This document shows positions 15,877 through 51,399 of a stretch of DNA of 64,000 nucleotides, piece by piece. Under the pieces are notes generated by a model. It saw only the letters and a program-made list of their open reading frames with translations. It was not told the origin of the DNA and made no database searches. The DNA comes from Janthinobacterium sp. PC23-8 (lineage in GTDB: Bacteria > Pseudomonadota > Gammaproteobacteria > Burkholderiales > Burkholderiaceae_D), in the NCBI RefSeq assembly GCF_002250505.1, contig NZ_NJGY01000001.1:1298489-1362488 (forward strand). Reading direction: 5' to 3'. The translations under genes and the position numbers were made by a program. How positions within the stretch are numbered: position 1 is the stretch's first letter; each line of letters opens with the position of its first letter.

Positions 15877-16008
15877 TCATTTTTACGGTCTTCGTGATCT
15901 CAAGGGTACAGGGGAGAATCATTGCCATATACTTCCCTCCTCATTCAATCAAGTGATACATTGCATATCTCAATTATGGATTGATTGAAAAAATGCTCAG
16001 GAAATAAC

Positions 16009-33800: not shown

Positions 33801-34424
33801 CTGGTTGGCCTGGCCGCCGCGCTGGATTTCGATATAAAAATGGCCAGGGAAAATGCTGGCCCAGCGCTGGGCGTTGCGTTCCGCCAACGCCAGGTTGCCG
33901 TTTTCAATCGCGATGCCGACGTCGCCGAAATGCGCGCCCGACAACACGATCAGGCCATCGGCCGCACTGTCGCCCGGATATAAATCATAGGTATTGGTGG
34001 CCAGCGCCTGCAGCCATTCGATGCGCACTTCGGCGCGGCCCTTGTACTGGTTGGTGAGCCAGGCGGTCGACAGCAGTTCGCACAGCTGCAGATAGCCCAT
34101 GCGGTTCTTTGCCAGCAACAGCAGGCGCGACGGTTTTTCGCGGTTGTCGTCGTTGCTAATCCACACATCGACACCGACCACCGGCTTGATGCCCTTGCCG
34201 CGCGCGGCCTTGTAGAACTTGACCATGCCGAACAAATTGGACAAATCGGTGACAGCCAGCGCCGCCTGCTGGTCCTTGGCGGCGGCGCCCACCACGTCGT
34301 CGATACGCACCAGGCCGTCGACGATCGAGTACTCCGAGTGCACGCGCAAATGCACAAATCCGGGCCCTTGCGCAGCGGGGCGCGCCACCGCCGCAGTGGC
34401 GGCCTCTTGCATTACCATTTCCAT
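30876..34424 (-). CDS. dnaE: DNA polymerase III subunit alpha
   Basis: About 1182 residues: the replicative polymerase. Domains in order are PHP ([15 protein letters not shown] near residue 20), the C-family polymerase core with catalytic aspartates in [15 protein letters not shown] (about 428-432) and [14 protein letters not shown] (about 588), the fingers, a helix-hairpin-helix region near 830-900, and a C-terminal OB fold ([14 protein letters not shown] near 1000). It is DnaE1 type, not the shorter ImuC/DnaE2. The first ATG (34424) is used; two more ATGs follow within 12 bases and a TTG lies upstream, so the exact start is uncertain. It is divergent from trhO. A 909-codon antisense open frame over it is a shadow. 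Confidence 0.97.
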
Positions 34425-34512
34425 CTTTGTGTACCCATCGTGCAAAATTCAATGGGGTCTATTCTACCGCGTCGCGGGCATCGGCCGGGTATCGTGGCCG
34501 GCCCGGCGGGCT

Positions 34513-35450: not shown

Positions 35451-37385
35451 CTAGCGCGGCGGCCAGGCGTACGAGAAATCCTCGTCATACGCCGTCAGGT
35501 TGGGACTGTAAGCCGGATCGCTCTGCAGTTGCTTGCCCCAGCGCTGCTGCACAAAAGCGATTTCCGCTGAGAAACGCGCCAGCTTGTCCGGCGCATGGTC
35601 GTCACCGCGCGTGGCCGATTCGTGATGAACCATCTCGGCGTACGGCGTCCAGACGTTGCGGTAGCCGGCTGCGCGCACTTTCAGGCAGAAATCGACATCA
35701 TTGAAGGCGACGCCCAGTTGCTCTTCCATGCCGCCGACCAGCTCGAACACCTCACGCCGCACCACCAGGCAAGCAGCCGTGACGGCACTGAACGACTGAT
35801 GCAGCAGGGCGCGTCCGAAATAGCCGGCCTGACCGCGCTGCACATAGCGGTGCGCATGGCTGGCCACGCCGCCCACGCCCAGGATGCAGCCGGCATGCTG
35901 CAGCCGCCCGTCCGGATACCACAGGCGCGCGCCCACGCAGCCGATCTCGTCACGGATGGCAAATGACACCATTTCCTCGAGCCAGTCGGGCGTCAGGATT
36001 TCGATATCATTGTTCATCAGGCACAACAGGCTGCCGCGTGCCATCTTTGCCGCGCGATTGTTCAGGGCGGCAAAGTTAAACGGGGATTCATCGCGAATAA
36101 CCTGGACCCGCTCGGCCGGCAGGCGCGCAAATAGCTGCCGCGTGGCCTCTTCAGTACTGCCGTTATCGATGATGATCACTTCGAAGTTGCCGTAGCTGCT
36201 GCGCGCAAACAGCGAGTCGAGGCACATGCCCAGCAGGTCGGCGCGGTCGCGCGTGGGGATCAGGATGCTGACCAGCGGCAACGGCGAGGGACGCGCAAAG
36301 CGTACCCGGTTCATGCTCGGCACCTCGGGCGCCTCCAGCACGTCGGCCGCGATGCCCTTGCGCGCCAGATGTTCCCTGACCGCCCTGCGTCCGGCTTCGG
36401 CGGCATAATTCTTTTCACCGGCGTCAAGCGCCGTACTGCCGCTGATGGCGCGCCAGTGATACAGTACCTTGGGCACGTGCACCACCTGCTCCGGCCTCAG
36501 TTGTTCGATCACGCGCAATGCCAGGTCGTGATCCTGAGCGCCATTGAAGCCTTCCCGAAAGCCACCCAGCTCGCGCACCAGCGCGGTACGGTACACGCCC
36601 AGATGGCACACCATGTTCTGTGCCAGCAGCAGTTCAGGATTGAGATCGGGCTTGAAATTCGGATCGAAGCGGCGGTTGGCCGCATCGACCTTGTCCTCGT
36701 CGGAATACACCAGGCCCACGTCGGGCTGCCGGTTGATGGCTTCGGCGATCCACCACAGCGCATGCTCGGCCAGCAGGTCGTCGTGATCGAACAGGGCGAC
36801 AAATTCACCGCCGGCCAGCGCCAGCGCCGAATTGGTGGACGCCGCGATATGTCCGTTCTGTTGACGATAGACGATACGGATGCGGCTGTCCAGGCTGCGG
36901 TAGCGCTCCAGCAAATCTCGCACGCCCGGATTGGTCGATGCATCGTCGGCAATGCACAGTTCCCAGTGCGGGTAAATCTGCATGCGCACCGATTCGATCG
37001 CCTGCTCCAGAAAGGCCAGTGGCGGATCAAACACCGGCAACACCACCGAGATCAGCGGCCGTAGCGCAAAGCCTTGCATGTCGGTGCATAACTGCGCGCG
37101 CGTCGCCTCATCGAGTGAGCCATAGCGGCGTACCCATTCGGCATAATCGTTGCGTCCAAACTGCGCGGCGCTGGCGACCTTGCCAAAGCCGAGCCGCACG
37201 CCGGCCAGTCCCTCGCGCCGATACAGGCGGCACGCCTTGCGCACGACGCCGGCCACGCCGCCGCCACGCTGCAGCGCCAGGCGCAGCACGGCGGCGGCGC
37301 GCGCCGGATGGCGCAACCAGGAAAGGAAGCGGCCAGGCTGGCGGCACGAGTGCGCAGGGGTTTGCTGTGGCATTTTTGGGGACAT
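35451..37385 (-). CDS. Tandem GT2 glycosyltransferase
   Basis: A 644-residue protein with two GT-A domains. A basic N-terminal segment (about 1-75) precedes the first domain (about 110-350: PLISVVLPVFDPPLAFL, LFDHDDLL, YSDEDKVD, WRAISGSTA) and the second (about 370-620: PLVSILIPTRDRADLL, LMNNDIEIL, GVAFNDVDFCLKVRAAGYRNV). Such double proteins often build repeat units of cell-surface polymers, each domain making one linkage. It closely resembles, in layout and in C-terminal motif (SPNLTAYDEDFSYAWPPR), the C-terminal half of the fusion at 45953-49219, so the two look like paralogues. It is the last gene of the locus, 30 nt after the GtrA gene. Confidence 0.9.
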   Translation of the reverse strand: MSPKMPQQTPAHSCRQPGRFLSWLRHPARAAAVLRLALQRGGGVAGVVRKACRLYRREGLAGVRLGFGKVASAAQFGRNDYAEWVRRYGSLDEATRAQLCTDMQGFALRPLISVVLPVFDPPLAFLEQAIESVRMQIYPHWELCIADDASTNPGVRDLLERYRSLDSRIRIVYRQQNGHIAASTNSALALAGGEFVALFDHDDLLAEHALWWIAEAINRQPDVGLVYSDEDKVDAANRRFDPNFKPDLNPELLLAQNMVCHLGVYRTALVRELGGFREGFNGAQDHDLALRVIEQLRPEQVVHVPKVLYHWRAISGSTALDAGEKNYAAEAGRRAVREHLARKGIAADVLEAPEVPSMNRVRFARPSPLPLVSILIPTRDRADLLGMCLDSLFARSSYGNFEVIIIDNGSTEEATRQLFARLPAERVQVIRDESPFNFAALNNRAAKMARGSLLCLMNNDIEILTPDWLEEMVSFAIRDEIGCVGARLWYPDGRLQHAGCILGVGGVASHAHRYVQRGQAGYFGRALLHQSFSAVTAACLVVRREVFELVGGMEEQLGVAFNDVDFCLKVRAAGYRNVWTPYAEMVHHESATRGDDHAPDKLARFSAEIAFVQQRWGKQLQSDPAYSPNLTAYDEDFSYAWPPR

Positions 37386-37415: not shown

Positions 37416-37817
37416 CTAGCGGAACGACCAGCGCTTGTGTCCGAGGTAGCTGGTAAATACCGGCACGACCACGCCGACGGCATGCGCGATCTCCTTGCCC
37501 CAGCTTGTCACGCCCATGGCTGGCAGCACGTAGTAGGCCAGCGCCATGCTGATGGCCCAGGTTTGCGCGACCGCCACCAGGTTGACCAAGGTAAAGAACA
37601 AGGCGGAGCGGCCCATCGATTGCGCGCTGTCCTTGAACACAAACAACTTTGCCAGGACAAACGCCGTCACCATGCCCGTCAGGTAAGCGAGGATGACGGC
37701 GCCGGAAAACGGCAGCCACTGGTTATAGACGATGCGCGAGCCAAAATTGACGGCCGCGGCGGTGCCGCCGGTCACCAGGAAGACAACAAACTGGCGCGAT
37801 GCAAAATGCCTGATCAT
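37416..37817 (-). CDS. GtrA-family membrane protein
   Basis: A 133-residue protein with four hydrophobic spans and the GtrA pattern [19 protein letters not shown]...[19 protein letters not shown]. GtrA proteins are thought to flip or present polyprenyl-linked sugars; the mycobacterial relative Rv3789 sits beside dprE1/dprE2 and is linked to arabinan synthesis. Here too it shares a locus with DprE1- and DprE2-like genes. Its ATG overlaps the stop of the FAD oxidoreductase by 4 nt. A role in moving or presenting lipid-linked pentofuranose is inferred. Confidence 0.85.
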
Positions 37818-39100
37818 GCGGCCGCATCTTTCGCCATCTGACGGCCAAAACCGATGCTTTCGGAAATGCCGCGGTCTTCCGGGTAGTAATACGAGGTGTC
37901 GGCTACCCACAGGCCCTGCACCGGCAAGGACACGGGCGGCAGGCGCGACAGGTAGCCAGGCTCGCAAATGGGCTGCGCATGGCGGTAACGGCTGGCGCGC
38001 ATGTCGATAAAGTCGGCGTCGCTCAAGGCGGGGTTGATCTTCTTGAAGTAACGGCGCACCTTGTCGAGGAAAGCCTGGTCCGGTTCTGCAAACTTGGGAT
38101 GCTCGCCAGGCATGTAAAACGGCACGTACACGATATGCTCGTCCATCGGACGCAGATTGGAATACTCGACCAGGCCGGGGATATCCATGTCGGGGTCATT
38201 GGTGTTGAGCCAGAAATTGTCGGTCAGGCGCTGGCGCAGCTTGACGATCACGCAGACCACCGCGATATTGTTGAGCGCGCGAAATTGCGACAACACCTGC
38301 TCAGGTAAATCCGGCATCAGGCGCGGCACATACGGCAACGGTACTGTACTGATCACCTTGTCAAACACTTCGAACTGGCCAGCCACTTCCAGGCCGCGCA
38401 CCTTGCCGTCCTCGATCAGCACCTTGCCGACGGGCGAACTGAGGCGTACCTCGCCACCATGACGCACGATATCGGCGTGCATACCCTGCAGCAGGGTCGA
38501 CGAACCGCCGTCGAGATAGCCGAGCTTCTCCTTGAACAGGCTGTAGCGCGAACGGCCAATGCGGCGGATGCGGCTCCAGATCCAGGCGGCGGACAGATTG
38601 TCCGTGTAATCATAAAACTTGTAGTCGAACAGGCGCCGCCACAGCACTTCATAGGCTTCCTTGCCAACCCAGCGGCGTATCCAGGCCACCGCATCGACAT
38701 TGTCCAGCGGCTTCCAGTCATCGCGCTTGGTCGACAAAAAGGCATGCAGGCCATAGCGGAACTTGGCCACGAAACCCAGTCCCTTGAATTTCAGCAGCGC
38801 CACCGGATTGCCCCATTCCTGCAAGCGGTCCTGGTACCAGTAGCCCATGCGGGTGGCAACCCAATGCATCTTGTCCTGCAGTCCCAGTTCGTCAAGTACC
38901 GTCAGGAAGGCATGGTCGGAGATGGCGTGAAAATGATAATAGCGTTCGATCGACAAGCCGGAAAAATCGAATGCGGCCGTCATGCCGCCGACCCGGTCGT
39001 CGGCCTCGAAGACCACCGGCGTGTGGCCGTCGCGCGCCAGCTGATACGCCACAGCCAGTCCCATCGGACCGGCTCCCAGCACTGCAATACGTTGACCCAT
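37814..39100 (-). CDS. FAD/NAD(P)-dependent oxidoreductase (amine oxidase/UGM-like fold)
   Basis: A 428-residue flavoprotein with an N-terminal dinucleotide site [21 protein letters not shown], a GG doublet in DRVGGM and a C-terminal FAD-binding ending ([30 protein letters not shown]). The fold is that of amine oxidases, phytoene desaturases and UDP-galactopyranose mutases. In sugar clusters such proteins may act as mutase or sugar oxidase; the substrate cannot be given. It starts with an ATG at 39100 (MGQRIAV) rather than ten codons earlier. Confidence 0.82.
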
Positions 39101-39163
39101 GTTGATACTCCACTGTGTTAATTTGAACAAAGGCGTTGACCGACGTCGCTACGCCTTCTGCTG

Positions 39164-41275
39164 CTATTCTGATTTCAGCGCCAGCGCCGACCATTCGCCC
39201 CAGCCATCGCCGTTGTCGCTGATCCGCAGCACCAGTTCACCCGATGGCAAGGCGGCGCTGTCGAGCACGAGTTGCGTCCATTCCGGCAGCACCGGCATGA
39301 CCACGCTCAACTGCGGATATCCTTCCACTGTCATCACCTGGTGTCCGGCGGTGGGCCCGGAGCGGTAAAAAAACCGGTCGCCGCGTTTGAGCCGCAGGGA
39401 AATAGTTCCCGTATCCTGGTCACCGTGGATTGAACTGCCATAGACCCGCATGCCGTCGATCTTCGATCGATGGAAATCCGCACCCAGCCATTGATTGCCC
39501 GCCAGGACGCTGGCGCTGCCCAGGCTCGCCAACTGCGGCGATGGCGCGATGGGTTGCGCGGAAAACAGCGGTGCCGACACATGGACAGGCAGGAAACATG
39601 CTGGATGCTCACCTTGCAGTACCATGTCGCCGCCCAGCGCCACAGCTTTGGCGTAGCCGGCAAAGCCGGTCTGCGTCGCCGGCGCGCCTGGCGTCGGAGC
39701 GCCGGTTGCCGCATAACCGACCACGTGGCCTGCGACGACCAGCCGCACGAAAGTGGGCGCCTGCGCACTGCCGGGCGCATGCAAGGCACCTTCGATGCGC
39801 ACATAAGCAGGATCGCCAACGACAGGAACCACGGCCGACACGCCGCCATCGCAGCGCACGCCAGACTGTGGCAAGGACTGCCCCATACGGGCCGCCACAC
39901 CCTGCAGCGGATAATGGCCGAAGATCGACAAGTCTTTTTGCACCGCCCGCGCGGCCAGCGCCAGCGCCCTTGACGGTTCCGGATAGACCTGCATGATCTG
40001 CGCCTTGTCCTGCACCCCCATCGCCAGCGCCAATGCGGCAACGCGCTTGCCGAACAAGGCCGTCTCGTTCGCCGGCTTCAAGGCCTGCACCTGCAACAGC
40101 AGCATGGCCGCGCCCAGTACGCCCAGCGCCAGCACCGACACGCCGCGCCAGGCTTTGGCGCGCTCGCGCAGCAACGGAAAATACAGCACCGCCAATGCCG
40201 CCCAGGCCATCACCGCCGGCGTGGTATACCGGCTTGAGAAGGCTTGTTCAGGCCCGAGCGACATACGCCCGCTTGCCGTCAGCACGGCCGTCATGACGAT
40301 ATACGCGATAAAAAACAGCAGCGCCAGCGCCGGACCGCGCCGCGGCGATGACAGCTCGCGCCAGAGCCGGTAGAGCGCACAGGTCACCAGCAACAGGCCG
40401 GCCACCAAGGCGAGCTGGCTGGCCCAGGAAGCGCCGCGCGCCAGGTAAAAAAATGGCCCGCCCAGGTAGCGCAAGCTGTAGGACAGCATGCCCAGCGGAT
40501 GCTCGAGCAGCACCTTGTGGATCGGTGCACGGCCGCCGATCATATTGTAGTGATAAAAGAAGACCGACAAGCCCAGTACGGTAAAAAAGGCCAGGAAGAC
40601 AATCTTGAAGCGGCCCAGGCGCACCACGATCGCATACACCAGCATCAACGGCAGGGCAAGAATACCGTTGGCCATCGCCACCATGCTGCCCAGTCCGAAC
40701 ACGGTGGCCATCATGCAATGACGCCCCGCCAGAGCGCCATATTGCGCCCGCGACAGCCAATACAAGGCGCACAGCGGCAACAACTGGGCCAGGAAAAACT
40801 GACTCTGGAAGCCCCACGTCAGGTTCTCCTGCTGCGACCATAAAAACAGCCATGCCGTCAGGAACAGCATCGCCGCCCATTCGCCGGCAGTGGCGCGGGC
40901 GGTGCCGGCGAGCTGGCGCAAGATGCGGCAAAACAGCAGCGCCGCGCAGGCCACCAGCAGGTAATTGCAGATGATCAGGAACACGCTGGTCCCGCCGAAC
41001 CATTTCAGGTCCAGCCAGAAAAGCACTTTTGCCAGCACGATGCGGTGCTCGTTCTGCTGAAACCACCAGATGCTGCTGTCGCCAGCCTGCTGGAACAGGA
41101 AGAAATCGAGATAACCGTCCCACATGTCCCAGAATGGCACCGGAGACCAGGCCAGCACGCCGCCCGCTATCGCCAGTCCCACCATGCAGATGGCAAACAG
41201 GGCGCTGGCCAGCAACAGCCAGCGGCCACCCGATACGGCCCAGGCTTTGCGCCCGCTTATGGTATCGGTAGCCAT
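39164..41275 (-). CDS. Large polytopic membrane protein, GT-C-like, with periplasmic C-terminal domain
   Basis: A 703-residue protein. The first about 430 residues hold roughly 11 hydrophobic spans; the first extracytoplasmic loop has an acidic/aromatic motif SPVPFWDMWDGYLDFF (about 44-59) and NEHRIVLAKVLFW, in the place where GT-C glycosyltransferases carry catalytic acids. The last about 260 residues are soluble and beta-rich, predicted outside the membrane, with GDRFFYRSG and a possible carbohydrate-binding-type fold. This plan resembles polyprenyl-phosphosugar-dependent arabinosyl- and mannosyltransferases, but I do not recognise the family. The ATG shares one base with the stop of the epimerase gene, so they are coupled. 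Its place among DprE-like genes supports a sugar-transfer role. Confidence 0.7.
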   Translation of the reverse strand: MATDTISGRKAWAVSGGRWLLLASALFAICMVGLAIAGGVLAWSPVPFWDMWDGYLDFFLFQQAGDSSIWWFQQNEHRIVLAKVLFWLDLKWFGGTSVFLIICNYLLVACAALLFCRILRQLAGTARATAGEWAAMLFLTAWLFLWSQQENLTWGFQSQFFLAQLLPLCALYWLSRAQYGALAGRHCMMATVFGLGSMVAMANGILALPLMLVYAIVVRLGRFKIVFLAFFTVLGLSVFFYHYNMIGGRAPIHKVLLEHPLGMLSYSLRYLGGPFFYLARGASWASQLALVAGLLLVTCALYRLWRELSSPRRGPALALLFFIAYIVMTAVLTASGRMSLGPEQAFSSRYTTPAVMAWAALAVLYFPLLRERAKAWRGVSVLALGVLGAAMLLLQVQALKPANETALFGKRVAALALAMGVQDKAQIMQVYPEPSRALALAARAVQKDLSIFGHYPLQGVAARMGQSLPQSGVRCDGGVSAVVPVVGDPAYVRIEGALHAPGSAQAPTFVRLVVAGHVVGYAATGAPTPGAPATQTGFAGYAKAVALGGDMVLQGEHPACFLPVHVSAPLFSAQPIAPSPQLASLGSASVLAGNQWLGADFHRSKIDGMRVYGSSIHGDQDTGTISLRLKRGDRFFYRSGPTAGHQVMTVEGYPQLSVVMPVLPEWTQLVLDSAALPSGELVLRISDNGDGWGEWSALALKSE

Positions 41276-42222
41276 CAGAATTCCAGAATTACTTTGTTAT
41301 AACGCGCATCGTTGAACGTTTCATCGATGGCACGGGCAAATGGGGTGTACGGCACGCCGAACATGCCGGGCCAGTCGATCACTTCGAACTCATCTTTCGC
41401 GCTCAGCGCGGCGAGCTGCTGCGTGGTAAACGGCGGATTCTTGTCGAACACCGACCACAGCCAGATCAAGCCATAAAACAGGTGATACGGAATCCTGACA
41501 ATCGGCGTGCGTGCGCCGGTGGCGCGCTTGATGGTGCGGATGATATCGATGTAGTCGACTTTTTCGTGGCCGGAAATATTGTAGATGCCGGCGCCACGGC
41601 GGTGCTCGATGCAACTGATGATGATATTGGAAAAATCGCCGACATACAGCGGCTGGCGCATGTAGCGGCCATGGCCCGGGATCGGGAACACCGGCACTTT
41701 TTTCATGAAACGCGACAACCAGCCCAGATGCTTGCGGTCGAACCAGCCAAACATCAGCGTCGGCCGCAGCACCGGGCAGGCGATGCCGCTGGCCAGCACC
41801 ATCTGCTCCTGCTCCTTCTTGCTGCGCGTATAGAAATCGTCAGCCACCGATTCCACCACCGAAGAGCTGATATGCACCAGGTAGGGCTGGCGCGGGCTGG
41901 ACTTGATCTGTTCCAGTATCAAACGCGAGGCGTCGACGTTATTGCGCACAAAGTCCTGGTAGTCGATGCCGCCAATTTGCGCCTGCAGCATGACCACCAC
42001 ATCGGCGTCAAGCACATGGCGCTGCCAGTCGCCCGGCTCGGCCAGGTCGGCATATTCGCAGACGATATCGGGCTGGACTTTTTGCAAAATCGCCAGATTG
42101 CTGCGATGCTTGTCCAACACCACCAGATTGGTATAGCCCTTGGCTTTCAGGCGCGCCACCAGGTTTTGCCCGACCAGCCCGGCACCGCCCGGAAGGACAA
42201 TTTTTTGATTGCGATGGTTCAT
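41275..42222 (-). CDS. NAD-dependent epimerase/dehydratase (extended SDR)
   Basis: A 315-residue extended short-chain dehydrogenase with the nucleotide motif LPGGAGLVGQNLVARL near the N-terminus and HISSSVVESVADDFYTRSK, where the usual active-site YxxxK appears as YTRSK. These enzymes alter nucleotide sugars or related polyols; the substrate is unknown. The ATG at 42222 is chosen over a GTG three codons earlier because GGGAG lies 10 bases upstream. Stop and next start share one base. Confidence 0.85.
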   Translation of the reverse strand: MNHRNQKIVLPGGAGLVGQNLVARLKAKGYTNLVVLDKHRSNLAILQKVQPDIVCEYADLAEPGDWQRHVLDADVVVMLQAQIGGIDYQDFVRNNVDASRLILEQIKSSPRQPYLVHISSSVVESVADDFYTRSKKEQEQMVLASGIACPVLRPTLMFGWFDRKHLGWLSRFMKKVPVFPIPGHGRYMRQPLYVGDFSNIIISCIEHRRGAGIYNISGHEKVDYIDIIRTIKRATGARTPIVRIPYHLFYGLIWLWSVFDKNPPFTTQQLAALSAKDEFEVIDWPGMFGVPYTPFARAIDETFNDARYNKVILEF

Positions 42223-42264
42223 ACGTAACACACTCCCATTATTATGCTTTAAACAGTACCGCCG

Positions 42265-43020
42265 TCAGATATCCATTTTATTAAAGACAAACCGTGGCAG
42301 GTGGCGAATCACCTGCATGATCACGGCCCATTTGCCCGGCGTATAAATGGTCTGCGCACCACGGGCGATCCCGGCCACAATCTCGCGCGCCACCTGCTCG
42401 ACCGGCGCCATCTTGCCCTGTCCCGGCAGGTGCGCCGTCATCGGCGTGGCGGTCGGTCCCGGCTTGATCAGCACCACCGTCAGGCCACTCGACGCCAGGC
42501 GGTGCTGCAGGCCTTGCGCATAGCGCGTCACGAGGCCCTTGGCGGCGCCATACACATAATTGGATTTGCGGCCACGATCACCGGCGACCGAGCCGATGAT
42601 GGCCAGTGTGCCCCGTTCGCTACGCTGCATGTGTTCGACAAACGCTTCGGCAAACAGCACCGGGGAGATGGCGTTGACCTCGAGGGCCTCGCGGCATTGC
42701 GCCAGGTTGGTCTGGCATTGAGCCTGGTCTGGCAAGGAGCCATGGGCAATCAGCACCACGTCCAGTTGCCCTTGGGCAGCCAGTTCCGCAGCCATCGCAG
42801 CGATGCCATCGGCGTCCATGAAGTCGGCCTCGCGCACGCTGATGCGCGACTGCGGGCTGCGTACCTGCAGGTCATCGGCCACCTGCTGCGTACGTTGCAC
42901 GCTGCGCCCCACCAGTGTCAGGTGCACCGTGGTGTCGCTCACCCACAGCCTGGCGCAATGCTCGGCGATGGCCGAGGTTGCTCCGATAATGACGATACGT
43001 TGTGGCTTGTTCGGCGGCAT
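42265..43020 (-). CDS. DprE2-like short-chain dehydrogenase
   Basis: A 251-residue classical SDR: the cofactor site IVIIGATSAIAEHCARLW, NVI/NAISP segment, catalytic Ser in IGSVAGDRGRKSNYVYGAAKGLV with YxxxK (YGAAK), and TPMTAHLPGQGKM. The pattern matches DprE2, which reduces the 2-keto intermediate made by DprE1 to decaprenyl-phosphoryl-D-arabinofuranose in mycobacteria. It lies 74 nt downstream of the DprE1-like gene, the same pairing and order as in Mycobacterium. The ATG at 43020 has AAGGA at 7-8 bases; ATG 43026 is too close to it. Confidence 0.85.
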   Translation of the reverse strand: MPPNKPQRIVIIGATSAIAEHCARLWVSDTTVHLTLVGRSVQRTQQVADDLQVRSPQSRISVREADFMDADGIAAMAAELAAQGQLDVVLIAHGSLPDQAQCQTNLAQCREALEVNAISPVLFAEAFVEHMQRSERGTLAIIGSVAGDRGRKSNYVYGAAKGLVTRYAQGLQHRLASSGLTVVLIKPGPTATPMTAHLPGQGKMAPVEQVAREIVAGIARGAQTIYTPGKWAVIMQVIRHLPRFVFNKMDI

Positions 43021-43094
43021 ACGCATTTCCTTGCTTAAAATTGATTGGATGTGAGTGGCAGCGCTACGCTGGCCACGCATTGATAGTGCGGATG

Positions 43095-44399
43095 CTAGCT
43101 GCCCATCAGGCGGCGCGACATGGCCGAACTGATGCCCGGATCGCGGTAAGGCAGAAACTCGGGCAGGCGCGGATAGCCGGCTTCAAACAAGGCACGCGGC
43201 ATGCGCGCATCCTTGGCAGGATACAACCTGCCGCCGGCTTCAGCCACGATACTGTCCAGCCGCGAAAACAATGCCAGCGTACCGTCTCCCCGGTTCGGGA
43301 AGTCCAGCGCCAGGGTCACCCCAGGCTGCGGAAAACTCAGCATGCCTGCCGACTGGCGCTCGCCAAAGGTCTTGAGCACGGCCAGGAACGAGCCCTCGCC
43401 GGCGCGCGCAATCGCCGCGAGCATCGCTTGCACCGCATCCTGGCCCACCGCGCGCGGCACCACGCTTTGATACTGATAAAAACCGCGCGGGCCATACATG
43501 CGGTTCCAGTCGAGCACATTATCGAGCGGATAATTAAACGTTTCGTAATGCACGGTGCGCCGGGGCACTTTCCATTTATTCAAATGATAATAGGCCGTAT
43601 TCAATACCGGCAACGACCAGCGGTTCATCAGCGACACCGGCGGCACGAATGGCATCTGATGCTTGCGGCCCGAAGGAGCGGCAGCCAGGCTTGCAGCCCC
43701 GAGCTTGCCGCGCATGAACAGGCCACGCGCGCCGCCGCCGGCCATGCAGTCGATCCAGGAGACCGTATGTTCCCACTGCGCCTCCGACTCGTCCGACAGC
43801 GCGAAAAACTGCGCGAGGTTTTCATAGGGCAGTGTTTCCGTTTCCAGCCAAGGGCCGGCAACGCGGCGCAATTGCAACTGCACCCGCATGATGACGCCGG
43901 TCAGGCCCATGCCGCCTATGGTGGCGGCCAGCCATTGCGGTAACAGGTGCGGACCGCAGTCGATCACGCTGCCATCGGTACGCAGCAATTGCAGCGCCAG
44001 CACATGGTCGCCAAACGAGCCATGCACATGGTGGTTTTTTCCATGCACGTCATTGGCGATTGCACCGCCGACGGTCACCATCTGCGTGCCTGGCGTGACC
44101 GGCAGCATCCAGCCGCGCGGCACCGCCATCTTCTGGATATCACGCAACAGGACGCCGCTTTCACAGGTCAGGCGGCCGTTAACGGGATCAAAACCGAGGA
44201 AACGATCCATGCTGGTCGTGCGCCATAGCGAACCGCCCGGGTTGAGGCAAACATCGCCATAGCTGCGTCCCATGCCATGCGCCACGCCCGGCCGGGCACC
44301 AGGCAAACCCTGCAATGCGCGCGCCGCATCGGCCAGCGCGAAGACCTCGTGCTCGTCAGCTGTCAAGCGCCCCCAGGATGACACTGTCACCATGACCAT
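43095..44399 (-). CDS. DprE1-like FAD-dependent oxidoreductase
   Basis: A 434-residue flavoprotein of the vanillyl-alcohol-oxidase/BBE class. The N-terminal FAD domain has ARPGVAHGMGRSYGDVCLNPGG and LPVTPGTQMVTVGGAIANDVHGKNHH (the GGAIANDVHGKN motif is typical of DprE1), plus GSFGDHVLALQLL. The C-terminal half has YYHLNKWK, the DNVLDWNRMYGPRGFYQYQ segment and SFPQPGVTLALDFPNRG, as in DprE1. In mycobacteria this enzyme oxidises decaprenyl-phosphoryl-ribose at C2. The start overlaps the UbiA-HAD gene by 13 nt. Function here is inferred from the family and from the neighbouring DprE2-like and UbiA-like genes. Confidence 0.87.
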   Translation of the reverse strand: MVMVTVSSWGRLTADEHEVFALADAARALQGLPGARPGVAHGMGRSYGDVCLNPGGSLWRTTSMDRFLGFDPVNGRLTCESGVLLRDIQKMAVPRGWMLPVTPGTQMVTVGGAIANDVHGKNHHVHGSFGDHVLALQLLRTDGSVIDCGPHLLPQWLAATIGGMGLTGVIMRVQLQLRRVAGPWLETETLPYENLAQFFALSDESEAQWEHTVSWIDCMAGGGARGLFMRGKLGAASLAAAPSGRKHQMPFVPPVSLMNRWSLPVLNTAYYHLNKWKVPRRTVHYETFNYPLDNVLDWNRMYGPRGFYQYQSVVPRAVGQDAVQAMLAAIARAGEGSFLAVLKTFGERQSAGMLSFPQPGVTLALDFPNRGDGTLALFSRLDSIVAEAGGRLYPAKDARMPRALFEAGYPRLPEFLPYRDPGISSAMSRRLMGS

Positions 44400-45820
44400 C
44401 CGACGGTGCCGCTCACCAGCACCAGCGCGAACACCAGGCCGGCCACGATGCTGACCTTGTCCTTGACAGCGAATACCAGCGGGTCGTCATGCATGTCGCC
44501 GCGGTGCGCCCGCAGCCAGATCCAGCTGACCCAGAACAGCATCACCGGCACCGCCCCCCATACAAACTCGGGCGTACGGTACAGCTGCAACACCGCCGCG
44601 CTGTTCAGGTACAAGGCCAGCACGACCACCGAGGCGTAACCGGAAGTAATGCCCAGCATTTGAATCAGGGGCGCATCACTGGTCAGATAACCACGGCCGT
44701 GCACTTTTTCTTTGCCACTGAGCATCTGTACCTGCAACTCCGCATAGCGCTTCACAAACGCCAGCGACAAGAACAGGAATACGGAAAAAGCCAGCAGCCA
44801 GAATGACAAGGGCATCTCGGCCGCAGCCGCGCCGGCAATGATGCGCAGCGTATACAAAATGGCCAGGGTCACGCAGTCGACCAGCACCAGGCGTTTCAAG
44901 CCCCACGAATAGATGCAGGTGAGCAGGAAGTAGACGACCATGCAGGCCAGGAACGCGCTGCCGACATAGTTGGCCAACAAGATGCTCACGGCCAGCAGTA
45001 CCGGCGCGAGCAGCACCCCCATCCAGGCGGGCACCACGCCAGAGGCAAACGGCCGCGTGCATTTGCGCGGATGCTGACGGTCGCTCTCCAGGTCCAGCAG
45101 GTCGTTGGCGATATAGACGGACGAAGCACACAGGCTGAAGGCGACAAAGGCCAGCGTCAACATCAGCAAGGTATCGATTTCGCTCAGCAGATGAGCTGCC
45201 ACCAGCGGCACGAACAGCAGCAGGTTCTTCATCCACTGGTGGACCCGCAGGACGCGGCGCCATGCGCTCAGGCCGGCGGCAGGGGCGGCGAACACGCGCT
45301 CGACCTCGCACTGCGCAGCCGCCTTCGTGGCCAGGTCGGCCGAAGCATTCACCACCACCGCCCGCCGCGCCCGCTCCCATACCGCCAGGTCGGCATATGA
45401 ATTGCCCGCGTAATCAAAACCGGCGCGTCCAAAGCGCTGCTCCAGGGCCGCAGCCTTGTTCTGCCCGGCCAGATTAACCACGCCATCGCTGGCCATCACG
45501 GTATCGAAGATATCGAGGTGCGCCGCAACTGCGTTGGCGATCGACATATCGGACGCGGTGCACAGGACCAATTGCCGTCCCTGTGCCTTTTGCAGTTTCA
45601 GCCAGGCCAGCAAGTCTGGCGCATACGGCAGCGAACTGGCATCGACACTGGCGCCTTGTGCCAATCGCTGCTTGAGGACAGCCTTGCCCTGAGACAGCCA
45701 GTAAGGAATGCGCACGGCATCCCATGGCCTGTCGCGCAAGGTGCGCAAGGCCGATTCATGCAGCATGTCGGTACGGATCAAAGTCCCGTCGAGATCAACG
45801 ACCAGTGGCAGCAAACTCAA
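44387..45820 (-). CDS. HAD phosphatase-UbiA prenyltransferase fusion (DPPR synthase-like)
   Basis: About 477 residues. The N-terminal part (about 1-190) is a HAD hydrolase with VVDLDGTLIRTD and CTASDMSIA; the C-terminal part (about 205-477) is a polytopic UbiA enzyme with YIANDLLDLESDRQHPRKC..RPFASG, the form of the NDxxD motif seen in decaprenyl-phosphate phosphoribosyltransferase (Rv3806c). The expected chemistry is transfer of phosphoribose from PRPP to polyprenyl phosphate, then removal of the 5-phosphate by the HAD domain, which would replace a separate phosphatase. The start is probably TTG at 45820, since AAGGG lies 7 bases upstream; TTG 45835 is the alternative. Its product would feed DprE1 and DprE2. 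Confidence 0.85.
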   Translation of the reverse strand: MSLLPLVVDLDGTLIRTDMLHESALRTLRDRPWDAVRIPYWLSQGKAVLKQRLAQGASVDASSLPYAPDLLAWLKLQKAQGRQLVLCTASDMSIANAVAAHLDIFDTVMASDGVVNLAGQNKAAALEQRFGRAGFDYAGNSYADLAVWERARRAVVVNASADLATKAAAQCEVERVFAAPAAGLSAWRRVLRVHQWMKNLLLFVPLVAAHLLSEIDTLLMLTLAFVAFSLCASSVYIANDLLDLESDRQHPRKCTRPFASGVVPAWMGVLLAPVLLAVSILLANYVGSAFLACMVVYFLLTCIYSWGLKRLVLVDCVTLAILYTLRIIAGAAAAEMPLSFWLLAFSVFLFLSLAFVKRYAELQVQMLSGKEKVHGRGYLTSDAPLIQMLGITSGYASVVVLALYLNSAAVLQLYRTPEFVWGAVPVMLFWVSWIWLRAHRGDMHDDPLVFAVKDKVSIVAGLVFALVLVSGTVGWSW

Positions 45821-45952
45821 AATAAAACCCTTCAAAAGTAAACATCCAGGACAACAGCATTTTTAAAATATGCCGTACCCGGCTTTGCCGGCACCTGTGC
45901 GAACGTCTTCATGGGCAGGGCCGGAGCGTCGGCCACCCTGCCCTGCGCCAGG

Positions 45953-48900
45953 CTAGGCCGCGTGAGGCGCCGCCGAACGCGGCGGCCACGCCAGGCTGAA
46001 GTCACTGTACAGCAACGACAGATTCGGACTGTACGCCGGATCATGCTGCAACAATGGCTCCCAGCGCCGCTTCATGTACTCCACTTCACGGTTGAAACGC
46101 GCACTCTTTTCGGGCGTGTCATCAAGTCCCCGCGTGGCCGACTCGTAGTGATACAGCTCGGCATACGGCGTGAGCATGTTGGTGTAGCCGAGCTCACGTA
46201 CGCGCAGGCAAAAATCGACGTCGTTGAAGGCCACTGCCAGGTCGGTCTCATTGAGCCCGTCCACTTCCTGGAAGATGCTTTTGCGGATCACCAGGCAAGC
46301 TGCCGTCACGGCAGAAAAAGCGCTGAGCAGGCTGGTGCGACCGAAATACCCATCATGCTGGCGCGCCATGTGGACGTGTGCATGACCGGCTACGCCACCG
46401 AGACCGACAATGACACCGCCGTGCTGCAAGGTGTTATCCGGGTACCACAGACGGGCGCCCACGGCGCCAATGCCGGGTTGCAGCGCATGGCTGACCATTT
46501 CGTCAAGCCAGTCGGGCGTGATGACTTCAAGGTCGTTGTTGAGCAAACCGAGCAGCTCGCCGCGGGCATGCCGCACCGCGCCATTGTTAAGCGCCGAATA
46601 GTTGAACGGACGGTCATCGCGCAGCACCCGCACGCGCTGGTCGCCTTGCACGTCGCGCAGCCAGTCCAGGGTAGCCGGGTCGTCCGAACCGTTATCGACG
46701 ATCAGTATTTCGTAGTTCGGATACGTCGTCAACGCGAGGACACTCTGCACGCAAGTGCGCAGCAGTTCGAGTCCATTACGGGTCGGAATGATCAGGCTGA
46801 CCAGCGGCGGATGGTCCGGCAGCGCGTAACGCACACGGTAACTATCTTTCACGCGCTCGACAGTGGCGTTCACGCCACGGCGGGCAAAATGGGCGGTCAG
46901 CGCCCGTTCGCCAGCCATTTGCGCGTACGGCTTGGCGTCGCTGGACATGGCCGTGCTCTCCTGGTGGACTCGCCAGTGGTACAGGACACGCGCAATATGG
47001 TGGATCTGGTGATCTTCGATACGTTCTATGCAGCGCAACGCCAGGTCATAGTCCTGCGAGCCTTCCATGCCCACCTGGAAACCGCCGACCTCGCGCACCA
47101 ACGCCGCGTGGTACACGCCCAGATGCGAAATCATGTTTTGCGAATAGAACAGCGGACGGTTCCAGTCGGTCTTGAAGTAGGCACCGAAACGTACGCCATC
47201 CGCATCGATCTTGTCTTCATCGGAATAGATCAGGCGTGCATCGGGCTTCTGGTTGATCGCCTCGGCAACCCAGAACAGGGCTTGCTCGCTGAGCAGGTCG
47301 TCATGGTCGAGCAGCGCGATCCAGTCACCGGTGGCGACTTCGATGGCGCTGTTCGATGCCGCCGAAATATGGCCGTTCTTGGGCCGGAACACGACCTTGA
47401 TGCGGCTGTCCTCGCGCTGGTAACGCTCGAGGATCGTACGGATCTCCGCATTGCTGGAGCAGTCGTCGGCGATGCACAGTTCCCAGTGCGGATAAATCTG
47501 CTGGCGCACCGATTCGATCACCTCGACCAGCCAGCCAGGTTTCGGATTGTAGGTCGGCATCACCACGCTGATCAGAGGCTGGACGGCAAAAAATTCCTGG
47601 CGCGTGCGTAGCGCGGCGCGCCGTTCATCGTCCAACACGTCATAGCGGTGCAGCCATGCCGCGTAGTCATTACGGTCGGGCTCGCCGGCAGCCACCGGCA
47701 CGCCGGACGGATTGCCCGACTGCACAGCTTCGACCAGCGCAGCACCACGTTGCAAACCGGCAATACCATCACGGCGGTAGGCCTCTGCGGCCTTGGCGGC
47801 GGTCGCCGGCAGGCCACCACCCATGCGAACCGCCGACCGGACCAGCCGCACCGCGCGCTTGGCCCGCAACACTTGCGTACCAACAAAACGCAGCCCGGCC
47901 GTCGCGCGCCAGCTGCTGGAGCTGCGCAGGGCGGCAATCTCGATATCGCGCTGGGTCAGTGTTTGCTGCACATCAGCAACACGTTCATCGCGCTGTACCA
48001 GGATCTGCTGGATTTCGGCTACCCGTTCTTCGCTCTGCGCCAGGGCTTGCTGCAGAGTGGCAATCTGTTCTTCTTTCTGCACCAAAACTTGTTGCAAGGC
48101 GGCAGCGCGCTCGTCGCGCTGCGCCACTTCCTGCCGCACGGCGGTAGTCTGGCTGATGCTGGTCGACAGTTGCTGGCGCAAGGTAGCGATCTGCTGTCGT
48201 TGCGATGCCGCATACTGATGTTGCACAGCGACCTGGTCGGCGTGGCGTTGCTGCAAGCCGCTGTGACGTTGCTGCAAGTCCGTCTGGCTTTGCTGCAGGT
48301 CGGCGTAACTTTGCTGCAGGTCGGCGTAACTTTGCTGCAGATCGGCGTAACTTTGCTGCAATGCGGACAGTTGCTGTTCGACCGCGGGCAAGGCCTCGTC
48401 GGGCGCCTGCAGCCGCAGGCTCCATGGATTGGCGCTCTGGTCAAACGCCACGCCATGCACATATTCCGTATTATGCAGCTGCAAAATACCAGGCACGACC
48501 CGCTCGTCGCTGCCGGTAACGATACGCCGTCCCAGCACGTTTTCTTCTGCCGGCGCCTTGCGTACGATACACAGCGAATTGATGAACTCGACGGAATGAA
48601 TACTGGTCAGCACCGCCTCGTCGATATCGCAGCCGTAATGGCCGAAAATACCCTGCAAGATGGCCTTGCGTTCGCGTGCGATGCCCCAGTGCTGGTGGCT
48701 GATCACGTCGGACAGGCGCTTGAAAAATGACAACGACGAATACGGGTCGTACAAGCCCCCCTGGTATTGTTCCCAATAACTACAGTGCAAATCTTCCGCG
48801 ACAAACAGGCCGCCGTCGGCCAAATGCTGGAAATACAGCGTGAAGGTCTTCACGATATCGCCCGAGGTGTGCGAACCGTCGTCGATGATCAGATCGAATA

Positions 48901-49219
48901 CCGGCGCGCGCCGCAGCACCTGTTCCACCACGGCAGGGTCATTGGCATCGCCCAGAATGAAACTGATGGCCGGATTGTCATATACCAGTGCCGCGCAGTC
49001 AGGATTGATGTCGCATCCGACCAGGGTACTGCCGGGCGCAAAATAATCGGCCCATATGTCGAGCGAGCCGCCGTTCTGGATGCCGATTTCAAGCAGCCGC
49101 AGCGGTGCTGTCCGGTAAGCGCTGAACAGGCGGTCATACTCCCTTAAATACAGATCCCATTTATCGGACACTTTGCCCTGGTGACTGGTGAATATTTCAA
49201 ACAACGTAGGCTTACTCAT
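45953..49219 (-). CDS. Methyltransferase, coiled-coil and double GT2 fusion (WbdD-like plan)
   Basis: A 1088-residue fusion. Residues about 1-225 are a class I methyltransferase of the macrocin/CmcI type (LLEIGIQNGGSLDIWADYF, GCDINPD, DLIIDDGSHTSGD). Residues about 270-440 are a Gln-rich coiled coil containing three LQQSYAD heptads in a row and several QRDER(V) units, ended by SSSSWRATAG. Then come two GT-A domains (about 545-800: PLISVVMPTYNPKPGWL, LDHDDLL, YSDEDKID; about 805-1075: PLVSLIIPTRNGLELL, LLNNDLEV, VAFNDVDFCLRV). Methyltransferase plus coiled coil beside an ABC exporter recalls WbdD, which caps and measures O9a chains, but here the capping and chain-building domains are one protein. 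The start overlaps the wzt stop by 8 nt. Confidence 0.87.
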   Translation of the reverse strand: MSKPTLFEIFTSHQGKVSDKWDLYLREYDRLFSAYRTAPLRLLEIGIQNGGSLDIWADYFAPGSTLVGCDINPDCAALVYDNPAISFILGDANDPAVVEQVLRRAPVFDLIIDDGSHTSGDIVKTFTLYFQHLADGGLFVAEDLHCSYWEQYQGGLYDPYSSLSFFKRLSDVISHQHWGIARERKAILQGIFGHYGCDIDEAVLTSIHSVEFINSLCIVRKAPAEENVLGRRIVTGSDERVVPGILQLHNTEYVHGVAFDQSANPWSLRLQAPDEALPAVEQQLSALQQSYADLQQSYADLQQSYADLQQSQTDLQQRHSGLQQRHADQVAVQHQYAASQRQQIATLRQQLSTSISQTTAVRQEVAQRDERAAALQQVLVQKEEQIATLQQALAQSEERVAEIQQILVQRDERVADVQQTLTQRDIEIAALRSSSSWRATAGLRFVGTQVLRAKRAVRLVRSAVRMGGGLPATAAKAAEAYRRDGIAGLQRGAALVEAVQSGNPSGVPVAAGEPDRNDYAAWLHRYDVLDDERRAALRTRQEFFAVQPLISVVMPTYNPKPGWLVEVIESVRQQIYPHWELCIADDCSSNAEIRTILERYQREDSRIKVVFRPKNGHISAASNSAIEVATGDWIALLDHDDLLSEQALFWVAEAINQKPDARLIYSDEDKIDADGVRFGAYFKTDWNRPLFYSQNMISHLGVYHAALVREVGGFQVGMEGSQDYDLALRCIERIEDHQIHHIARVLYHWRVHQESTAMSSDAKPYAQMAGERALTAHFARRGVNATVERVKDSYRVRYALPDHPPLVSLIIPTRNGLELLRTCVQSVLALTTYPNYEILIVDNGSDDPATLDWLRDVQGDQRVRVLRDDRPFNYSALNNGAVRHARGELLGLLNNDLEVITPDWLDEMVSHALQPGIGAVGARLWYPDNTLQHGGVIVGLGGVAGHAHVHMARQHDGYFGRTSLLSAFSAVTAACLVIRKSIFQEVDGLNETDLAVAFNDVDFCLRVRELGYTNMLTPYAELYHYESATRGLDDTPEKSARFNREVEYMKRRWEPLLQHDPAYSPNLSLLYSDFSLAWPPRSAAPHAA
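48282..48365. repeat. In-frame 21-bp tandem repeat in the coiled-coil region
   Basis: Four head-to-tail 21-bp units, the first and last imperfect, with the plus-strand core GCGTAACTTTGCTGCAGGTCG at 48303, 48324 and 48345. On the coding strand each unit gives one heptad (LQQSYAD), so gain or loss of a unit lengthens or shortens the coil by exactly seven residues with no frame change. Confidence 0.85.
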
Positions 49220-50555
49220 GAATGACCTCAAGCTCCGCACGGGTGAACGGCAAACCGACCAGGCCGTAACGGATTTTACTAGATGAAATGTTAATGATCA
49301 GAGCATCGTGCAACCAGTGATGCTGTACGTGGTTCTGCAGGTCGCCGTCCGCCACCGACGCCATGACGGCATATTGCCCATTGGGCAGCATCGGCAGGCG
49401 GAACTCGAACACTCCTTCGAACAGGGCGCCGGCGGCAACCGGGGTCGGCCGCAAGCCGGTGAAATGCAGGGTATTTTCGCCGAACAGATCCTGCCCCAGG
49501 CGGTCGCGCACGAGGAAACCAAGAATCGGCCGCTCAAGTGCCTGATGTGCCCGTGCCCGCACCGTCATGCGTACCCGTTCGTCGCCCTCGAACACCGCGT
49601 CGGTCTCGTCGGAGAGTTTGGTCAGCGCCACCGAAACAATGTCGGCATGGCCGGTTTTCCAGCCATTGGCGTCACTCAGATTGTCGCGCACCGACGCTTG
49701 CGTACCATAGTCGCTGGCCAGGGGTGGCGCTGAGGTGGCGTCGCCCGCTTCGGCGCCGCCTACCGAGGTCAGCTTCGACTCGGCACCGTAGATCTCCTGC
49801 AGCGTGTATTGCAGGTAGGCTTCGGAAACGGCCTTGGCCGTGCCCAGTTGCTCCACCCGCCCATGCTTGAGCCAGATCCCCGAGCGGCACAGGTTCTGCA
49901 CCGATGCGGTGTCGTGGCTGACAAAAATCAGCGTGCCGCGTTCCTGGAACTTGCGGATGAAGCGCATGCATTTCTGGGTAAACACGGCGTCGCCCACCGC
50001 CAGCGCTTCGTCGACGACGAGAATATCGGCATCGACATGGGCGATCACGGCAAAGGCCAGGCGCAAATACATGCCGCTGGAATAGGTCTTGACGGGCTGC
50101 TCGACAAACTGTCCGATGTCGGCAAAAGCGACGATGTCATCATATCTGGCGTCGATTTCTTCGACCGACAGGCCCAGCACGGACGCATTCATGTAAATGT
50201 TTTCACGGCCCGTGAACTCCGGGTTGAAACCCGACCCCAGTTCCAGCAGCGCGGCGATGCGGCCGCTGGTTTCAATGCTGCCCGAGGTGGGCGTGAGGGT
50301 GCCGCAGATCATTTGCAGCAAGGTCGACTTGCCGCTGCCATTACGGCCGATGACACCCACGGTTTCACCGCGCCGGATTTCAAACGACACATCGTTCAAG
50401 GCCCAGAATTCGCGGAAATACTGGCCGGTTGGACGGCCGAGCAGGCGCTGCGCGCGCGGCAGCATGAACTGTTTCAGGCGATCGCGCGGCGTGTCGTAGA
50501 TTTCATAACGCTTGCTCAGGTTGCTGACGCGGATAGCGATTTCATCAGAGGACAT
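49212..50555 (-). CDS. wzt: ABC transporter ATP-binding protein with C-terminal sugar-binding domain
   Basis: A 447-residue ATPase of polysaccharide ABC exporters. The ABC domain (about 1-245) has Walker A GRNGSGKSTLLQMI, TSGRIAALLELGSGFNPEFTGRENIY (the ABC-2 polysaccharide pattern), signature TYSSGMYLRLAFA and Walker B ADILVVDEAL. Residues about 270-447 match the Wzt C-terminal beta-sandwich, which binds the modified end of the chain before export. Presence of that domain implies that export depends on a terminal cap, which fits the methyltransferase in the next gene. The ATG at 50555 has AAAGGA upstream and overlaps the permease gene by 11 nt. Confidence 0.93.
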   Translation of the reverse strand: MSSDEIAIRVSNLSKRYEIYDTPRDRLKQFMLPRAQRLLGRPTGQYFREFWALNDVSFEIRRGETVGVIGRNGSGKSTLLQMICGTLTPTSGSIETSGRIAALLELGSGFNPEFTGRENIYMNASVLGLSVEEIDARYDDIVAFADIGQFVEQPVKTYSSGMYLRLAFAVIAHVDADILVVDEALAVGDAVFTQKCMRFIRKFQERGTLIFVSHDTASVQNLCRSGIWLKHGRVEQLGTAKAVSEAYLQYTLQEIYGAESKLTSVGGAEAGDATSAPPLASDYGTQASVRDNLSDANGWKTGHADIVSVALTKLSDETDAVFEGDERVRMTVRARAHQALERPILGFLVRDRLGQDLFGENTLHFTGLRPTPVAAGALFEGVFEFRLPMLPNGQYAVMASVADGDLQNHVQHHWLHDALIINISSSKIRYGLVGLPFTRAELEVIHE

Positions 50556-51399
50556 CGGCAAATCCTTTCCGGGTTTTCTGGAACCAGACAAAACCGGCCC
50601 AGGCAAACACCAGCGCCAGCAGCGTGTACAAGCCGAGGCCGGACCAGTCCGGCAAATGCCCCCACAGCAATACGTCGCGCGACTGTTCGATGATGAAGGT
50701 CAAAGGATTGGCCATGATAAAGACCCGCGCCGCTTCCGGCACGGCGGAAACCGGATAAAAGATCGGCGACAAGAAAGTCAGGACGGTGGTCAGAATGGTG
50801 ACGAATTGCCCCACATCGCGCAGAAACACGCCCAGCGAGGCGAGTATCCACGCCAGACCCATGATCAGTATCATCAAGGGCAGCAGCACCAGCGGCAGCA
50901 GCAAGGCGGTCCAGTGCAGGTAGCCATTGAGCAGGAAGAATGCGCTGAGGAGCACGACCAGGCTGATCATCGCATGAAACAGCGCGGCGCCCATCGCGAT
51001 CAGCGGCAGTACTTCAAGCGGAAACACCACTTTCTTGACATAGTTGACATTGGCCAGCACCAGCGTGGGCGCGCGGTTGATCACCTCGCTGAACAGGCCG
51101 AGCACGATCATGCCGACAAACAGGACAATCGCAAACTGGGTTTTGCTTTCCTCCACGCCAGCACCGCCCCAGCGTGATTTAAAAATCTCGGAAAACACGA
51201 AGGTGTACACCACCAGCATGAAAACCGGATTGAAAAAAGACCATGCCAGGCCCAGGATAGAGCCCTTGTAACGGCCCACGACTTCGCGTTTGCTCATCTG
51301 GGCAATCAGGCTGCGGTTATGCCACAGGCTGCGTCCGAGCGCCAGCAGCGACGTTGGCTGGGCGGCATGCGGATTGATTGCCGCGACATGCTGCCTCAC
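50545..51399 (-). CDS. wzm: Polysaccharide ABC exporter permease
   Basis: A 284-residue ABC-2 type inner-membrane protein with six hydrophobic spans. Landmarks are MSKREVVGRYKGSILGLAWSFFNPVFMLVVYTF, NYVKKVVFPLEVLP and FLSPIFYPVSAVP, all typical of Wzm/KpsM/TagG permeases. It forms the channel that moves undecaprenyl-linked chains to the periplasm with Wzt. The start is GTG, overlapping the rfbC stop by 4 nt (GTGA). Confidence 0.92.
   Translation of the reverse strand: MRQHVAAINPHAAQPTSLLALGRSLWHNRSLIAQMSKREVVGRYKGSILGLAWSFFNPVFMLVVYTFVFSEIFKSRWGGAGVEESKTQFAIVLFVGMIVLGLFSEVINRAPTLVLANVNYVKKVVFPLEVLPLIAMGAALFHAMISLVVLLSAFFLLNGYLHWTALLLPLVLLPLMILIMGLAWILASLGVFLRDVGQFVTILTTVLTFLSPIFYPVSAVPEAARVFIMANPLTFIIEQSRDVLLWGHLPDWSGLGLYTLLALVFAWAGFVWFQKTRKGFADVL

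Follow-up and report, generated by a model that had tools for sequence, protein, structure and literature searches.

A seven-gene module in a Janthinobacterium O-antigen locus ties an epimerase-like protein and a flavoprotein to the lipid-linked arabinofuranose route and may supply a side-chain pentose, tentatively L-xylopyranose

We analyzed a 64,000-nucleotide stretch of the genome of Janthinobacterium sp. PC23-8 (contig NZ_NJGY01000001.1), called the window below, in which seven co-directional genes on the minus strand (37416-45835) lie inside an O-antigen locus. They encode a HAD-UbiA fusion, a DprE1-like flavoprotein, a DprE2-like reductase, an extended short-chain dehydrogenase/reductase (SDR), a GT-C-like membrane protein, a second flavoprotein (the FAD protein) and a GtrA-family protein. 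What is new is that the extended SDR and the FAD protein are tied to the route of lipid-linked D-arabinofuranose (Araf), here and in many relatives. Judging from the sequences, we tentatively favor the reading that the module makes a lipid-activated pentose, preferably L-xylopyranose (L-Xylp), and places it on a rhamnose-based O antigen after polymerization. The concept of a pentofuranose or Araf pathway in Gram-negative O antigens is already published (Kelly et al. 2024, PMC11127046). A preliminary description of this stretch had recognized a mycobacterial-type arabinose pathway, and left out two genes in its span, those of the extended SDR (41275-42222) and the FAD protein (37814-39100). The intergenic gaps within the seven-gene run were only -13 to +63 bp, therefore an operon is plausible.

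The first three proteins showed clear homology to enzymes of lipid-linked arabinose synthesis. The HAD-UbiA protein (44387-45835) scored 668 bits against NF006088, where the cut-off is 351, and 152.6 bits against the narrower decaprenyl-phosphate model NF008978, under its cut-off of 207. Its motif NDLLDLESDRQHPRK was found at residue 244, and the alignment to the solved decaprenyl-phosphate phosphoribosyltransferase 8j8j (E 1e-32) included NDxxDxxxDxxHPxK and KRYAEL. The N-terminal HAD domain carries DLDGT at residues 14-18; a TTG start is needed, because the first ATG would cut this motif. The window locus thus holds the HAD-UbiA phosphoribosyltransferase and phosphatase that mark a three-component pentofuranose system. 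The DprE1-like protein (43095-44399), a putative polyprenyl-P-ribose 2-oxidase, carries the motif GGAIANDVHGKNHH at residue 111 and matched solved DprE1 with an E value of 2e-69; its score against the equivalog NF053785 of NCBIfam was 338.6 bits, under the cut-off of 500. The DprE2-like SDR (42265-43080, with a possible internal start at 43020) scored 163.7 bits against the equivalog NF053786, under the cut-off of 250. Homology to DprE1 and DprE2 is clear from the sequences, though both proteins fall under the NCBI equivalog cut-offs.

The last two proteins of the set named in the preliminary description were also present. The GtrA-family protein (37416-37817), a proposed flippase for the lipid-linked sugar, matched PF04138 with 52 bits. 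The GT-C-like protein (39164-41275) had no sequence match in Pfam, NCBIfam or PDB. A simple scan counted 12 hydropathy peaks, which overlap and fall into eight separate regions; the large C-terminal part has no hydrophobic segments. Over 78 loci, D50, N75-R78, Q148, R337, R349 and Y350 were conserved at 98.5% or more, and Asp50 follows the first hydrophobic region. The proposed catalytic Asp of several GT-C structures likewise follows the first segment, as described in PMC11127046. The family had 552 relatives among the 8000 candidates scored.

The term mycobacterial-type was appropriate for similarity, but not for recent origin. As in the mycobacterial decaprenyl-P-arabinose pathway (Rv3806c, Rv3807c, DprE1, DprE2, Rv3789), the window has the UbiA PRPP (phosphoribosyl pyrophosphate) transferase motif, the DprE1 motif, a DprE2-like SDR and a small membrane protein as the proposed flippase. 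In contrast to that pathway, the phosphatase of the window is a fused HAD domain, there is an extra SDR and FAD protein, DprE1 and DprE2 score under the equivalog cut-offs, and a cysteine of DprE1 is replaced. The window protein has Ala (GVTLALDFP) aligned where solved DprE1 has Cys (GWNICVDFP), which we take to be Cys387, the covalent target of benzothiazinones. Because of this replacement, benzothiazinone sensitivity, which had been suggested as a check, would probably be a poor and misleading test for the window protein.

The phylogeny that had been called for was also run. In a DprE1 tree of 95 rows, from which 13 loci were excluded as duplicates or fragments together with matches shorter than 360 residues, the window DprE1 nested among proteobacterial rows, the nearest being Janthinobacterium psychrotolerans. 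The sole actinobacterial row (Smaragdicoccus) was on a very long branch. Recent transfer from mycobacteria is therefore not favored. The label 'module', which was also given to L195 and L200 as their SDR and FAD genes lie elsewhere in their genomes, requires 11 changes on this tree; 17 rows are without the module, and five of these (L012, L025, L048, L050, L052) come from loci of 4.8-14 kb and are possibly false negatives.

The two added genes were followed through relatives in three ways. We collected 79 named loci anchored on the GT-C-like gene, taken from the best 80 of 91 relatives, and counted a gene as present when its best domain score was at least 70 bits. The FAD protein was found in 57 of the 79 and the SDR in the same 57, so that the two were paired in every locus having either (57/57) and both were missing in the other 22. 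DprE1 was found in 60 of the 79 loci, and 54 of these 60 also had the SDR and FAD protein; all six DprE1 loci without them were 4.8-14 kb long. Only three loci had the SDR and FAD protein without a local DprE1. For two of them, L037 (Smaragdicoccus) and L077 (Pseudomonas sp. PDM16, on the same contig as L074), DprE1 and DprE2 were elsewhere in the genome, a separation that fits a pair of enzymes drawing on an existing pool of polyprenyl-P-Araf. For the third, L028, DprE1 was not found in the 2.1-Mb metagenome-assembled genome. UbiA was missing from 8 of the 57 SDR-FAD loci, and some UbiA-less loci are stretches that start inside the module, with DprE1 at base 1 or 2 in L031, L063 and L066.

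We also searched 250 genomes drawn from the order, which are related to each other, with thresholds of our own choosing: E of 1e-40 or lower for DprE1 and UbiA, E of 1e-60 or lower for the SDR, and more than 450 bits for a strong FAD match. DprE1 was present in 27 genomes, UbiA in 26, the SDR in 6 and a strong FAD match in 6. The SDR, the FAD protein or both occurred in 7 of the 250, and all 7 were DprE1-positive, while 20 of the 27 DprE1-positive genomes were without both at these thresholds. One genome (G077) had a weak FAD match of 104 bits adjoining its SDR, and the incomplete genome G180 had a FAD match and no SDR match. FAD relatives with 28-31% identity also occurred in five other genomes; these genomes were DprE1-negative, and the relatives may belong to other families.

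For the Paraburkholderia fungorum family (Burkholderiaceae-type) the SDR was further found in 27 of 398 genomes, and for the Xanthomonas axonopodis family (Xanthomonadaceae-type) in 49 of 395. Of these 76 positives we examined 20 SDR-anchored regions, mostly on long contigs (8 of the 27 and 12 of the 49, respectively). UbiA, DprE1, DprE2, SDR, FAD protein and GtrA were found together within 15-19 kb in all 20, with weak UbiA scores in L306 and L307 (93 and 89 bits). The full gene set was also found in X. axonopodis DSM 3585 (L069). The SDR and FAD protein thus imply DprE1 and DprE2, and the converse does not hold. Since DprE1 often occurs without them, the two look like an extension of the route beyond lipid-linked Araf. 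Because the same set recurs in many proteobacteria, the association is not due to chance, and the module is a genuine and widely distributed variant of a pathway that was described recently.

Several variant systems were seen in the course of this comparison. A compact GtrA-DprE2-DprE1-UbiA-FAD-SDR run was found at L208:5879-11417, with a UbiA protein having no HAD match; its FAD and SDR proteins have diverged strongly (104 and 206 bits) but are still encoded together. L207:10086-18757, on a contig of an incomplete genome, had HAD-UbiA, DprE1, DprE2, FAD protein and GtrA but no SDR match, and it encoded a membrane protein matching PMT_2 weakly, at 25.3 bits against a cut-off of 26.1. This may be an intermediate system, perhaps for arabinopyranose, or the result of a gap in the assembly. 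In nine loci (L195-L197, L217, L218, L221, L222, L306, L307) a weakly matching UbiA (89-102 bits) lay beside DprE1/DprE2, divergently oriented in several cases, and these proteins are probably phosphoribosyltransferases without a HAD phosphatase. Another type of HAD-UbiA, sharing 43-46% identity with that of the window, was present in 12 of 37 same-genus genomes, including the genome of the window itself (L086-L097). The short flanks examined around it (up to about 1.5 kb) contained no DprE1 match, and it perhaps represents a ribofuranose-type system.

In the proposed pathway, the HAD-UbiA protein would move ribose-5-phosphate from PRPP onto polyprenyl phosphate and remove the 5-phosphate, and the DprE1/DprE2-like enzymes would then invert C2 to give polyprenyl-P-D-Araf. 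The homology of the three proteins supports these two steps, and we consider them very probable. Once Araf has been formed on the lipid, it is probably modified further by the FAD protein and the SDR. D-Arabinose and L-xylose differ only in their configuration at C4, and C4 of a pentofuranose cannot be inverted while O4 is in the ring; inversion is possible only in the pyranose. For this reason a change of ring size is proposed before C4 epimerization. The FAD protein would convert the furanose ring of D-Araf to the pyranose (D-Arap), acting as a furanose-pyranose mutase, and the SDR would then invert C4 to give L-Xylp. The model for the first of these two reactions is UDP-galactopyranose mutase (UGM), which interconverts UDP-galactofuranose and UDP-galactopyranose. 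GtrA would flip the lipid-linked sugar, and the GT-C-like protein would transfer it to the exported glycan.

The SDR has the features of an extended, GalE-type sugar epimerase. It matched PF01370 (Epimerase) with 58 bits, where the cut-off is 20.9, and has the Ser, the YxxxK and the glycine-rich motif; G15, G18, G21, S122-124, Y134 and K138, the catalytic residues among them, were kept at 98.5% or more in 57 loci. The FAD protein (NF005560, PRK07233) belongs to the amine-oxidase/UGM/phytoene-desaturase superfamily, and its Pfam matches were Amino_oxidase, DAO and NAD_binding_8 only. We infer the mutase role of the FAD protein and the C4-epimerase role of the SDR, and two results weigh against the mutase role: the Pfam scan gave no match of the FAD protein to GLF, the UGM profile, and a VIA-align comparison of its model placed the fold closer to phytoene desaturase than to UGM. 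Alignment to E. coli UGM with hhalign gave a probability of 85.6%, covering residues 14-223 only. His66 was invariant in 23 rows and aligned with a His of UGM; it was dropped as a UGM signature, because phytoene desaturase has His at the same position. Searches of mobile elements with the FAD protein gave 21 plasmid records, in 8 of which a single place covered 80% or more (identity up to 67%, in Burkholderia stagnalis), and one short phage match, which leave the overall picture unaltered.

Among the closest known systems is that of Citrobacter youngae (Kelly et al. 2024, PMC11127046), whose HAD-UbiA protein makes polyprenyl-P-ribofuranose (Ribf) from PRPP and whose GT-C enzyme, of family GT136, attaches the pentofuranose. 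Like C. youngae O1/O2 as presented there, the window has a HAD-UbiA polyprenyl-P-ribose synthase, a proposed flippase, a proposed auxiliary epimerase, a GT-C-like protein with a C-terminal non-membrane part and an O antigen of the ABC-transporter type. Unlike C. youngae, it has GtrA instead of the ORF14 transporter, which is of another family, and it has DprE1/DprE2 together with the SDR and FAD protein. In C. youngae O2 a single SDR, ORF13, turns lipid-linked Ribf into xylofuranose (Xylf) by inverting C3 (PMC11127046). Since a lone SDR suffices for that conversion, the flavoprotein of the window should do something beyond epimerization. The same paper mentions more elaborate systems with multiple epimerases or multiple GT-C enzymes in Xanthomonas and a Bacillus, which it leaves unexplained where it mentions them; a word search of its main text did not find flavin, FAD, mutase or pyranose.

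Patil et al. 2007 (PMC2238763) describe lipopolysaccharide (LPS) loci with the same set as the window in Xanthomonas citri 306 and X. oryzae BXO8. These loci contain a prenyltransferase, an oxidoreductase, a short-chain dehydrogenase, an NAD-dependent epimerase, a 'phytoene desaturase' and GtrA, as well as large hypothetical membrane proteins. The gene order differs from that of the window, and a methyltransferase is inserted in BXO8. The passages on these loci in PMC2238763 propose no pathway.

The end sugar was considered in view of O-antigen structures. The rhamnose-based O antigen of R. solanacearum has a beta-L-Xylp side chain in a minor repeat, with all residues pyranose (PMC10450222), and a title on X. 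campestris pv. begoniae names a 'partially L-xylosylated L-rhamnan'. Xanthomonas O antigens are commonly polyrhamnans bearing monosaccharides as side chains, which are sometimes irregular, and rhamnose and xylose are named for X. translucens (PMC8042644). Partial substitution is described as typical of post-polymerization modification (PMC11127046). L-Xylp is favored because rhamnose-based O antigens are known to carry it as a partial side chain and the window locus has rmlBDC and Wzm/Wzt; we regard it as a possible product of the module. More tentatively still, the L-xylose of bacterial O antigens may come from this module, starting at PRPP and passing through polyprenyl-P-D-Ribf, D-Araf and D-Arap. 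No paper on L-xylose biosynthesis for O antigens was found in our searches of the open-licence PMC literature, subscription papers being outside the search.

The preliminary description had concluded that a pentofuranose is delivered from a lipid carrier. This holds in so far as the gene set agrees with polyprenyl-P-D-Araf being made from PRPP, flipped by GtrA and used by a GT-C transferase, but the end sugar may differ: if the SDR and FAD protein belong with the module, Araf may be a mere intermediate and the final sugar may not be a pentofuranose. Araf is thus supported up to the lipid-linked stage and doubtful as the final sugar. A plain decoration with D-Araf by the GT-C-like protein, with the SDR and FAD protein serving another step of the same glycan such as a second donor, would agree with the DprE1/E2 homologs linked to Araf-containing glycans in PMC11127046 and with the GT-C relatives found in DprE1 genomes without an SDR match (4 of 10 tested: G288, G290, G291, G292). 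It is nevertheless unlikely, as the SDR and FAD protein accompany DprE1 in nearly all GT-C-anchored loci that hold it, with exceptions only on short ones, and the presence of the whole set in every SDR-anchored region examined is a linkage hard to explain for a side step.

Two other readings assign different chemistry to the FAD protein. It might oxidize, and the SDR reduce, C3 of lipid-linked Araf, giving D-lyxofuranose as a C2,C3 double epimer by a second DprE1/DprE2-like pair. The constant pairing of the FAD protein and SDR, as of DprE1 with DprE2, would suit such a pair, and ORF13 provides a precedent for C3 inversion of lipid-linked Ribf (PMC11127046). That inversion, however, needs a lone SDR only, and we consider D-lyxofuranose rather improbable. 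Slightly less credible is that the FAD protein modifies the polyprenyl chain, in the way that enzymes of the phytoene desaturase type work on isoprenoids, and that the SDR alone epimerizes the pentose. The shared fold proves no function, there is no known reason for a changed lipid solely in SDR-bearing systems, and a strong FAD match is missing in 20 of the 27 DprE1-positive genomes. Transfer of the sugar to pilin or another protein instead of the O polysaccharide, as proposed for Pseudomonas pilin arabinosylation by DPPRS orthologs (PMC11127046), is very improbable, because the seven genes sit between a methyltransferase-GT2 gene and a GT2 gene of the O-antigen locus and the Xanthomonas set likewise lies inside an LPS locus (PMC2238763).

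The Gram-negative O-antigen setting given in the preliminary description was borne out by the genes around the module. The glycan locus, on the minus strand, lies between dnaE (30876-34445) and a DEAD-box helicase gene (56313-57968). Its genes are, in order, two GT2 genes, rmlB (53170-54237), rmlD (52262-53173), rmlC (51396-51941), wzm for an ABC-2 permease (50545-51399), wzt with a C-terminal carbohydrate-binding Wzt_C domain (49212-50606) and a methyltransferase-GT2 fusion (45953-49240), followed by HAD-UbiA, DprE1-like, DprE2-like, SDR, GT-C-like, FAD protein, GtrA and a two-domain GT2 protein (35451-37385). It is an O-antigen locus of the ABC-transporter type with rmlB/D/C, Wzm and a Wzt carbohydrate domain; rmlA was not seen among the genes scanned. 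The fusion protein has 1095 amino acids, with a Gln-rich, coiled-coil-like repeat (QQSYADL repeated) between the methyltransferase and two GT2 domains. Its gene adjoins that of a Wzt carrying a C-terminal binding domain, and in this setting the fusion is possibly a joined chain terminator or ruler and polymerase.

The host genome is 6.39 Mb; judged by the GT-C gene, Janthinobacterium psychrotolerans is the closest of its named relatives, at 92% identity. Elsewhere in the window, 15985-17046 encodes an AAA/SMC-type ATPase that matched the AAA_21 (AbiEii-like) domain. It lies in a patch that has 44% G+C, where the window is mostly above 60%, and it is possibly a recent arrival or a defence gene. 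A low G+C stretch (46%) was also present at the end of the window (63001-64000).

If the SDR and FAD protein extend the Araf route, the genes of a strain could be used to forecast its sugar (Ribf, Xylf, Araf or another one), and the presence of DprE1/E2 would not by itself point safely to Araf. An enzyme that changes the ring size of lipid-phosphate sugars would, if true, represent a new type of activity, and the L-sugar would be built wholly on polyprenyl phosphate, without a nucleotide sugar. Should L-xylose prove to be the product, it would become directly testable how plant-associated bacteria come by this rare O-antigen sugar.

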